Part shown: piece after piece, positions 2,365 to 5,047 of the stretch
How the letters are laid out: every line of letters begins with the position of its first letter
How positions within the stretch are numbered: position 1 is the first letter of the stretch
From: JAFGIT01 sp016929465 [NCBI: Candidatus Coatesbacteria bacterium]
GTDB taxonomy: Bacteria; B130-G9
DNA length: 5,047 bases
Assembly: GCA_016929465.1 (NCBI GenBank)
Contig: JAFGIT010000199.1
Span: 1-5,047, forward strand
Direction of reading: 5' to 3'
Notes under the pieces: generated by a model
What the model saw: the letters and a program-made list of their open reading frames with translations, nothing else
The model's database searches: none
Told to the model about the DNA's origin: nothing
Position numbers and translations under genes: made by a program

Positions 2365-2413
2365 CCTCAACCTTGAACTTTGAACTATGAACCTTGAACT
2401 CCGAACCATGAAC
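2365..2413 (+). repeat. Heptanucleotide tandem array, 7 units of NNTGAAC
   Basis: Seven consecutive 7-base units read CCTCAAC, CTTGAAC, TTTGAAC, TATGAAC, CTTGAAC, TCCGAAC and CATGAAC. GAAC recurs at exactly 7-base spacing from 2375 to 2413, with the first unit degenerate (CAAC). The array crosses the start of the downstream ligase gene: both candidate ATG codons, 2387 and 2408, are ATGAAC parts of repeat units, and the in-frame TGA at 2381-2383 is another unit. Similar TTGAAC-type heptamer arrays occur between genes in various uncultured bacteria, as I recall. Their role is unknown to me. Confidence 0.85.
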
Positions 2414-4756
2414 AACCGAGTTCCTGATCTCTTACAGAAGACCATATTGCTCTGCATTATCGTGGTCCTCCCTTTCATCGCGATTCCGGAGGCCCTCGAT
2501 GGCTTCATTCTACCGAAGTGGTTCGCGATCAAGCTCGCTGCACTTTTACTTCTCATCATCTCGCTGATCGATGGCTGCCGTAAGACTCCTCGTTTCATGG
2601 CTCTGCCTTTGGACCTCGGGGCCATCCTCCTAATCCTGTCCTTCGGGATCGCATGGACCAGGTCTCTTGGAAACTGGACCGGGCTCCATACGCCATCTCA
2701 GCTGCTTGCTCTCTGGATAATCTACCGAGCGATTGCCGCCTATTCTTGGGACCACCGACTCAAGATATTGGCTGCCTGCGTTATTCCCGGCGTGGTACTA
2801 TTCTCTCTTGCCATCTTGTCGGTCCTGGGCGGTCCCTATGTGAAATCTGGATGGCTGGTTGCGGCCCAGCTTGGTCATGGAAACTATGCCGGGCAGTGGG
2901 CGATACTCATAGCACCCGTCGTCGCTGCGTTCTTCTTCACTGCAAGAGGGCGGCTTTGGAGAGCATTTTTCGCCGTCCTGCTTGCGCTTTCCGCTTGCTA
3001 TCTTCTCATCTCGAACTGCCGCGGCGCGTGGGTGGCGCTCGCAGTGGCGACCGGGGTGGTCTGGCTCGTTCGGCGTCGGTCGGGCTCGTCTTCTGTTACA
3101 AGGCGTTCGCTGGTGCCTGTTCTCATGATATTGGTCCTTGCGGTGGCTCTGTTATGGCAGACTGGCTCCTTTAAGGAGCGGATCCTCACGAGCTTCGGGA
3201 GGGACGATACCGGCTTGAGCTTCCGCCGCCTTGCCTGGGGCAGCACGCTGAAGATGATCTCGCACGAGTCGGTTCTCGGCACTGGTTCCGGGAACTTCGC
3301 GGCGTTTTACCCCCGCTATCGGACCTCCGAGGAGAGGGCCTTGTTCCCGCAGAGACGGTTCGTCAGCAATCCACACAATAGCTACCTCCTTGCGGCAGCG
3401 GAGGCAGGACCGCTTGGTCTTGCCGCGATCATATTTTTCGTCCTCGCAGCGCTTAGATTGGCTCTCGAACGGGCCAGACCGGACCGCGGGGGTGGGGATA
3501 TATTCGACGCTGCATTGGCAGTCGGCGTCGTCGCCACCATTTTGCATACGGTGGTCAGCTTCAATCTCGAGAAGCCGGTCTCCGCATTCTACTTCTGGGC
3601 ATTCGCCGGAGTCTTGTCGATGAGGTCCCGGTCGGGTGGTCATGGTTGGGGAGTCTCAGGTCTCAGAAGAACGGTCCGGATATCTCTTTCGACACTGGCC
3701 GCGTCCCTTCTAATAGTAGTTCTTGTCGCAGACTGCAGGGAGATAATGGCTTCGGTCCACTCCCCCAGGGGATCGATGTATAAGCGGGAAGGGAATCTCG
3801 CCGAGGCCGAGCGCGAACTGCGGGCGGCAGTTGAATTGTGGCCGGAGGGGGCAACAAACTCTCACCTTCTGGGGCGCATAATGCTGCAGAAGGGCGACTT
3901 GAGGAGCAGTGAGAAGCTCAACGAGATGTCGCTTTCTATCTGGCCATATTTCCGCGATGCGCTCGTGGACCTCGGGATCATCAAATGGCGTCAGGGCGAT
4001 TTGAGGGCTGCGGAGAGATTCCTGGTGGCGGCAATTGACATTGACCCAGAGTTCTCCAGGGGTAGGATAGCCCTTGGGAACCTCTATGCGGCACACTCGG
4101 AATACGACGCCGCCATCGAGCAGTATCACCACGCTGAGGCAAGGAGATCATCGCGAGAATCCGCCCGGTACTACATCGCAGCGGTTCACGCTGCGCGCGG
4201 GAGATTGGATGAAGCCCTCGATATTGTGGAGGACCTTATCTCGCTGAAGCACATGTATCTCGATTCGGAGCTCAGCATCGGCCTGACAGCGGATTATCTC
4301 ATTGATGTTATCGGGTGCGGAGAGTGGCCTTTTGAGGTGGTTGCCAGAGACGGTGATTTGTGGCCTGTCTGGAGGGGCGAGAAGGTCGGACGGATGGCGA
4401 TAAGGAGGCAGGCTCCGAGGATAGCGCTGTTAGCCGATGGAGAAGGCGTCGAAATGAGAGTGTCTTCCGATGGTGAGCGCTTGCATATAAGGTTCATCAG
4501 AGCACCCGATTCGAGGGCTCACGTGTATTCTATCGTCGTCGAGACACCATCTCTATTTAGGTCATTCGACCTTCTCGCGGACGCGGAGCTTCATTCCAGG
4601 ATACTGATGCTCTATGCGGAGATACTCGACTCGCTTGGCAGGCATCAAGAAGCGCAGCAAATGCGCTCCGAAGCGCTGGTGTTGAATCCGAGAGCTTCAA
4701 CAGCCCCAATTCGCTATTCTGAAACAGATCAAATCAACTCAACGGATTCTGAGTAG
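2387..4756 (+). CDS. O-antigen ligase/polymerase family (Wzy_C) membrane protein with C-terminal TPRs
   Basis: Encodes 789 residues. About ten to twelve hydrophobic segments run from residue 18 to about 450, followed by a soluble tail. Family marks: SNCRGAW with Arg212, the RRLAWGSTLKMI segment (Arg280/281, Trp284), a large extracytoplasmic loop, and NPHNSYLLAAAEAGPLGL with His330, matching the conserved Arg and His positions of WaaL-type ligases. Residues about 463-620 hold three to four TPR-like repeats, then a strand-rich stretch (640-735) and a last TPR-like helix pair (736-768). Known for the family: transfer or polymerisation of lipid-linked glycans at the periplasmic face of the inner membrane; some members instead glycosylate proteins, so the acceptor is open. 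The start is uncertain: ATG 2387 or in-frame ATG 2408, both inside the heptamer array and without a ribosome site; an in-frame TGA at 2381 excludes anything earlier. It is followed 18 bp later by a paralogue in the same frame. Confidence 0.88.
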   Translation: MNLELRTMNNRVPDLLQKTILLCIIVVLPFIAIPEALDGFILPKWFAIKLAALLLLIISLIDGCRKTPRFMALPLDLGAILLILSFGIAWTRSLGNWTGLHTPSQLLALWIIYRAIAAYSWDHRLKILAACVIPGVVLFSLAILSVLGGPYVKSGWLVAAQLGHGNYAGQWAILIAPVVAAFFFTARGRLWRAFFAVLLALSACYLLISNCRGAWVALAVATGVVWLVRRRSGSSSVTRRSLVPVLMILVLAVALLWQTGSFKERILTSFGRDDTGLSFRRLAWGSTLKMISHESVLGTGSGNFAAFYPRYRTSEERALFPQRRFVSNPHNSYLLAAAEAGPLGLAAIIFFVLAALRLALERARPDRGGGDIFDAALAVGVVATILHTVVSFNLEKPVSAFYFWAFAGVLSMRSRSGGHGWGVSGLRRTVRISLSTLAASLLIVVLVADCREIMASVHSPRGSMYKREGNLAEAERELRAAVELWPEGATNSHLLGRIMLQKGDLRSSEKLNEMSLSIWPYFRDALVDLGIIKWRQGDLRAAERFLVAAIDIDPEFSRGRIALGNLYAAHSEYDAAIEQYHHAEARRSSRESARYYIAAVHAARGRLDEALDIVEDLISLKHMYLDSELSIGLTADYLIDVIGCGEWPFEVVARDGDLWPVWRGEKVGRMAIRRQAPRIALLADGEGVEMRVSSDGERLHIRFIRAPDSRAHVYSIVVETPSLFRSFDLLADAELHSRILMLYAEILDSLGRHQEAQQMRSEALVLNPRASTAPIRYSETDQINSTDSE
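2490..2635 (+). repeat. Long direct repeat, copy 1 (within first ligase gene)
   Basis: Aligns without gaps to 4902-5047 at an offset of 2412 bp. By hand count about 15 of 146 bases differ, all before 2594; 2594-2635 is identical to 5006-5047. The repeat continues beyond the window on the right. It reflects tandem gene duplication. Confidence 0.9.
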
Positions 4757-4774: not shown

Positions 4775-5047
4775 TTGACCACGATCATGTCATACTTCTC
4801 GAGAGACAATCCCGAAAATCATCGCAATAGTAAGACGGACCTATTCAGGCTCTTACTTGTTCTGGCTTGTCTCTCAATCATTCCCCTCCTTGCCTTGCCT
4901 GAAGCCCTGGATGGGTTCATTCTGCCGAAATGGTTCGTGATCAAGCTCGCGGCGCTCTTTCTTCTCATCATCTCGCTGATTGATGGCTGCCGGAGGACCC
5001 CTCGCTTCATGGCTCTGCCTTTGGACCTCGGGGCCATCCTCCTAATC
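4775..5047 (+). CDS. Partial tandem paralogue of the Wzy_C ligase-like protein (N-terminus)
   Basis: The first 91 codons of a gene cut off by the window end. The start is taken as TTG 4775 because of the strong GGAGGA upstream; ATG 4787 is the alternative. The N-terminal 45 or so residues differ from the upstream gene, while the stretch from LPEALDGFILPKWF to the window end matches residues 33-83 of that gene at 47 of 51 positions. It shows two to three hydrophobic segments, as in the upstream protein. No catalytic motif is visible because they lie further downstream, so the function is inferred from the paralogue. Only 18 bp separate it from the upstream stop codon, so the two are probably cotranscribed. 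Confidence 0.85.
   Translation, partial: MTTIMSYFSRDNPENHRNSKTDLFRLLLVLACLSIIPLLALPEALDGFILPKWFVIKLAALFLLIISLIDGCRRTPRFMALPLDLGAILLI
4902..5047 (+). repeat. Long direct repeat, copy 2 (within second ligase gene)
   Basis: Partner of 2490-2635, truncated by the window end. The final 42 bases are identical to copy 1, including synonymous positions, whereas the preceding 104 bases are about 86% identical by hand count. Confidence 0.9.

Follow-up and report, generated by a model that had tools for sequence, protein, structure and literature searches.

The window, the 5,047-nt stretch of DNA analysed here, carries an array of seven heptamers (2365–2413, + strand) over the start region of a gene for a membrane protein, and arrays of the same kind recur through the source genome and in many other bacterial groups. 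On balance, we take the window array to be one member of a dispersed, strand-polar heptamer family that took over the leader of this gene, with any effect on expression being incidental. The first-pass annotation had read it as an expanding repeat that replaced the initiation region and whose copy number could tune or switch expression of this gene. Its placing of the array over the start, and its view that initiation was remade, have held up; an array specific to this gene and a dedicated switch have not.

The window array and the start of the Wzy_C gene

The seven units, of NNTGAAC type, read in order CCTCAAC, CTTGAAC, TTTGAAC, TATGAAC, CTTGAAC, TCCGAAC and CATGAAC, the first ending in CAAC and the sixth in CGAAC. 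Tandem Repeats Finder calls periods of 7, 14 and 21 inside 2369–2413, and the best lag-7 match of the whole window (30/42) starts at 2357. None of 1,000 first-order resamplings of the window attained a match of 30, the resampled maximum being 26, so a chance origin of the repeat is excluded. As originally described, ATG codons from unit 4 (2387–2389, +) and unit 7 (2408–2410, +) lie 21 bp apart in one frame, with a TGA in frame with both inside the array (2381–2383, +).

The ORF counted from the first of these codons (2387–4756, +) encodes a product with a Pfam match to Wzy_C (O-antigen ligase; E 2.9e-17) plus TPR repeats, and the earlier label of a membrane glycan enzyme is a fair one. A tandem paralogue follows (4775–5047, +, extending past the window end), with GGAGG ahead of its TTG start at 4775 in place of an array, the strong ribosome site that had been reported there. 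On the other side, and divergent from the array-bearing gene, lies a gene with a C-terminal FGE-sulfatase domain (227–2134, −); another FGE-sulfatase gene (C112) also has an array at its start.

The closest two orthologues of the window gene, in G001 and G003 (46–47% identity), have no array upstream, and the initiation region has therefore been replaced or re-made. Both orthologues have 37 residues ahead of a conserved PKW and the paralogue has 46–50, compared with 35 from ATG 2408 and 42 from ATG 2387. By this measure ATG 2408 is slightly favoured as the start rather than proven, and with the longer N-terminus of the paralogue in view 2387 is also a possible start. In the search for relatives, the N-termini of the window protein and its orthologues do not align with each other. 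The frame from 2387 stays open solely because unit 6 supplies CGA (at 2402) where the common unit supplies TGA, and in a standard array a unit-made ATG would, from the sequence, run into TGA five codons later. The argument that gain or loss of a unit would frameshift initiation at 2387 is thus a weak one.

Neither ATG is preceded by an SD-like tetramer, as had been noticed, and this is not unusual for the source genome. Among 77 long ORFs from an unselected sample, an SD-like site accompanies the first possible start in 26 and some start within the first 40 codons in 48 (the latter a figure without a matched control), and the rate at single internal start codons is 191/1372. Folding of the leader does not differ from that of shuffled sequences (z −0.56), which leaves an unstructured leader unsupported as an explanation. 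At the Rfam gathering score, the array matches no known RNA, the sole match in the window being a tRNA gene at 8–79 (−).

A family of arrays in the source genome and beyond

The array had been treated as particular to the window gene, but its region matches 32 further places in the source genome, and the genome-wide map that the first-pass annotation had proposed gave 37 arrays of at least three units on 29 fetched stretches, the window array being one of them, with TGAACYT as the predominant word. The exact three-unit pattern has 78 matches there (44 forward, 34 reverse), whereas its reversed control has none, and the YT form with up to three mismatches has 140 against 17. By trimmed count, 36 arrays comprise two of three units, 18 of four, nine of five and seven of six or more, and 124 of 137 interior units have YT at the two free positions. 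A general richness of the source genome in heptamers was rejected: period-7 repeats are rare in 137 kb of unselected sequence, in which Tandem Repeats Finder reports two period-7 rows at a score of at least 30 and none at 40 or above, where it reports two of period 14.

The pattern is present in 5 of 31 genomes, the source included, two of them with different letters at the free positions. Within the genome collection, the four-unit pattern occurs on at least 117 stretches of other genomes. The groups among the 80 matches listed include Bacteroidetes, Verrucomicrobia, Acidobacteria, beta-, gamma- and deltaproteobacteria, Chlorobi, Chloroflexi, Armatimonadetes, Nitrospiria, candidate phyla and others; these are taken from record titles, mostly of metagenome bins, and single cases may be misbinned. 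A further 60 stretches with the pattern come from the viral collection. None of six 15–16-base forms of the array appears in the literature searched, a body of mostly non-subscription journals, and the papers listed there for TGAACTT or TGAACCT as repeats include nothing on this word.

Among the loci returned for three genomes of one family, the free positions are CT, TT or AT in 17 of 17 units in G027 (6 arrays) and 20 of 21 in G032 (9 arrays), and the word nevertheless differs in G031, with CA or TA in 31 of 38 interior units (8 arrays). The variant word of G031, TGAACYA, places an ATG in most units (loci L298–L318). Each of the four genomes compared keeps to one word, which is unexpected under independent slippage at each site. 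We therefore favour dispersal or upkeep across the genome, by REP-like copying or by a word-recognising protein, over slippage acting separately at each place.

Gene edges, polarity and pairing

In the source genome, gene starts and gene stops are found at array edges about equally. The final units contain or directly precede an ATG start at four genes: the window gene, a NUDIX gene (C32), a nucleotidyltransferase gene (C37) and truA (C214). The truA start matches that of its array-free orthologue in G002. Four further cases, with a TTG start inside the last unit (C49, C98, C112, C357), were kept off this firm list because later starts are possible. At gene ends, one array begins 5 nt past the ftsK stop, the position of which is the same in three relatives, all without an array, and TGAACTA units provide the TAG with which related propeller-like genes end (C48, C249, C300), probably also at C197, at a contig end. 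With truA, ftsK and an aconitase-family gene among those adjoined, the arrays are not confined to contingency-type genes. Twenty edge or neighbour proteins were scanned, and Pfam families match 17 of them at E 0.001, in some cases weakly; these fall into many classes, with no function common to the 20.

Another way to view the arrays is by their orientation, as the TGAACYT strand tends to run toward a gene edge, whether start or stop. With genes taken from a simple ORF caller, the 3' end lies closer to a gene than the 5' end in 17 of 22 two-neighbour gap arrays of the source genome, and the same holds for 49 of 67 such arrays from the genome collection. Stops were used for the test of polarity because starts are possibly biased, the forward strand having TGA in every frame. 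Pooling the source genome, the genome collection and the viral collection, gene stops lie 0–20 nt past the array 3' end in 44 cases and past the 5' end in 6 (p 3e-8), a limit that was picked after the lists were seen; the counts by data set are 3 and 3, 24 and 1, and 17 and 2, respectively. At the preset wider limit of −35 to 20 nt the pooled counts are 63 and 28 (p 3e-4), and polarity at that limit is not significant for the source genome alone (9 against 4, p 0.27) or for the viral collection alone (26 against 17).

Arrays internal to ORFs were left out of the stop test (5/36 in the source genome, 25/119 in the genome collection and 20/133 in the viral collection). In the source genome 8 of 36 arrays fall inside called ORFs; for the genome collection the figure is 40 of 119, and 36 of those 40 lie on the opposite strand of the ORF, where the array has no stop. 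For other heptamer words in the two collections, a stop lies near the 3' end of the C-rich strand in 23 cases and near its 5' end in 10 (p 0.035), a post hoc comparison that gives a hint of the same kind.

Of 44 pairs of opposite arrays within 80 nt of each other, 43 face head to head (16/17 in the genome collection and 27/27 in the viral collection), and the source genome has no such pairs. A hairpin or terminator was rejected for this reason, and additionally because the arms elsewhere often differ, by eye, at the free positions. On some contigs of the viral collection, L223, L228 and L249 among them, the head-to-head pair recurs in several gene gaps, once inverted and mostly as four plus four units separated by about 28 nt whose sequence is similar from copy to copy, and there the arrays behave as a dispersed REP-like element. 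The recurring two-array element is seen on the IMG/VR contigs L228 (1117–7769), L223, L249, L232 and L233. REP and BIME elements are short, dispersed, intergenic and often arranged as inverted pairs; TGAACYT arrays share this short, dispersed, intergenic and paired character, whereas single TGAACYT arrays have no palindrome.

Synteny breaks at arrays prove nothing. At truA, ftsK and the window gene, the genes that adjoin the arrays stand next to other genes in G001 and G003, and four more arrays (two on C70, one on C349 and one on C32) gave no conserved junction, partly at genes without a DNA match. On an unselected contig taken as a control, 4 of 11 adjacent gene pairs were kept, 3 were broken and 4 were indeterminate, so the loss of synteny at arrays is uninformative.

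Origin of the arrays and related repeats

We envisage that TGAACYT arrays, mostly of four or five units, occupy mainly gene gaps with the 3' end reaching a gene edge. In the source lineage, one such array would have come to adjoin the window gene and taken over its leader. Translation would now begin inside the array, probably at ATG 2408 and without Shine-Dalgarno pairing, ATG 2387 would be a by-product of the array sequence, and an effect on expression, if any, would be incidental and not that of an evolved switch.

In this the window array resembles, by analogy, two kinds of reported repeat. TAACTGA direct repeats in Candidatus Maribeggiatoa (Beggiatoaceae) and others form mostly intergenic heptamer sets that run forward toward start codons and overlap the ribosome site, SD sites being few; SD-independent initiation has been proposed for these genes, and in Flexibacter litoralis one set stands reversed directly after a stop (excerpts of PMC4679880). 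Both are tandem heptamer sets dispersed through the genome, but the word here is TGAACYT rather than TAACTGA. Moreover, the TAACTGA sets lie mostly at starts, with two to six units, and have a limited phylogenetic range in the same excerpts, whereas TGAACYT arrays also lie at stops, mostly have four units and span many groups. The GGGAATC and GGGGA(C/T)T heptamers of Xanthomonas and Nostoc are dispersed intergenic arrays, four units being preferred, and hold the same polarity to ORF edges irrespective of ORF direction, at general-function genes (excerpts of PMC4692102). TGAACYT arrays share their edge polarity and modal four units in the pooled data, the source genome being weak in this respect. 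However, the GGGAATC type is described there as G-rich and quadruplex-forming, whereas neither TGAACYT nor its complement has a G-run beyond GG. Since TGAACYT shows the same edge polarity without quadruplex potential, a quadruplex is unlikely as the general cause.

A putative regulator of several genes, binding tandem TGAACYT in DNA or in RNA, would fit the single word per genome, the modal four units, the paired geometry and the start-proximal arrays without SD sites. Regulators have been proposed for the TAACTGA repeats (PMC4679880, excerpts) and for Geobacter metallireducens, where heptamers with the words GGGACCG and MTYCTGA stand four or five in tandem in many copies, some as pairs on opposite strands, and were assigned, untried, as putative regulator sites (excerpts of PMC2700814); the words differ from TGAACYT and the tandem and paired layout is similar. 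We consider this explanation doubtful, however, as arrays on the stop side are the reverse complement, so that one RNA-binding protein cannot account for both, and the 20 scanned proteins share no function.

Independent local slippage, each array being made in place by a polymerase with a seven-base register, has been offered as a guess for heptamer excess (PMC4692102, excerpts), and it agrees with the whole-unit changes described below and with how common other heptamer words are near arrays in the two collections (135 intergenic ones, compared with 31 of period 8). It is nonetheless improbable: it predicts neither one word per genome nor the same word across many groups, nor does it predict polarity and head-to-head pairs, and other heptamers are rare in unselected DNA of the source genome.

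Phase-variable simple repeats are tandem repeats at the 5' end of surface-related genes, a position that the window array shares. Its site at a start codon, the glycan-related gene and whole-unit changes in such arrays elsewhere would all suit a contingency locus, in which a change in unit number adjusts the translation of a surface-glycan gene or turns it on and off. Unlike phase-variable repeats, however, TGAACYT arrays are short, degenerate and found at many gene classes, and in near-identical contigs from outside the source genome their unit number can change but mostly does not. A comparison of 318 arrays, each with 200 nt of flank on either side, gave 50 cross-contig pairs in which at least 100 nt of each flank aligned, and the array was identical in 34 of them. 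L247 and L254 differ by one unit (4 against 3) with both flanks 100% identical, and the three units of L261 and L266 correspond to four in L271; in the rest, neighbouring arrays are compared out of register, or the two arrays agree in unit number and differ by substitutions. Given this general constancy, and the presence of arrays at housekeeping genes and at gene ends, a dedicated switch at the window gene is unlikely, and with imperfect units and a 2387 frame held open only by a substitution, we rate the contingency locus as quite improbable. Highly improbable is a dedicated telomerase-like enzyme adding a genome-specific heptamer to 3' DNA ends, by which a gene-bearing piece with (AAGTTCA)n at both 3' ends would give arrays aimed at genes on both sides, head-to-head pairs at piece junctions, one word per genome and a processivity of about four units.

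Heptamer arrays have so far been reported from single lineages, with no agreed origin. TGAACYT is a third word with the edge polarity known for two unrelated ones, and it spans many bacterial groups. Their origin can now be tested through word, polarity and pair geometry across complete genomes, together with a search for a trans-acting factor, and the arrays are natural examples of start and stop codons within repeat DNA. Two minor observations concern array surroundings: three consecutive arrays with 12-nt spacers lie within a called ORF (L054, 1486–1596), and the 5' side of several arrays in L052–L080 carries further recurring phrases, such as CGCAGATTTTCGCAGATT and CCTTCGTGTCCTTCGTGG-like strings.
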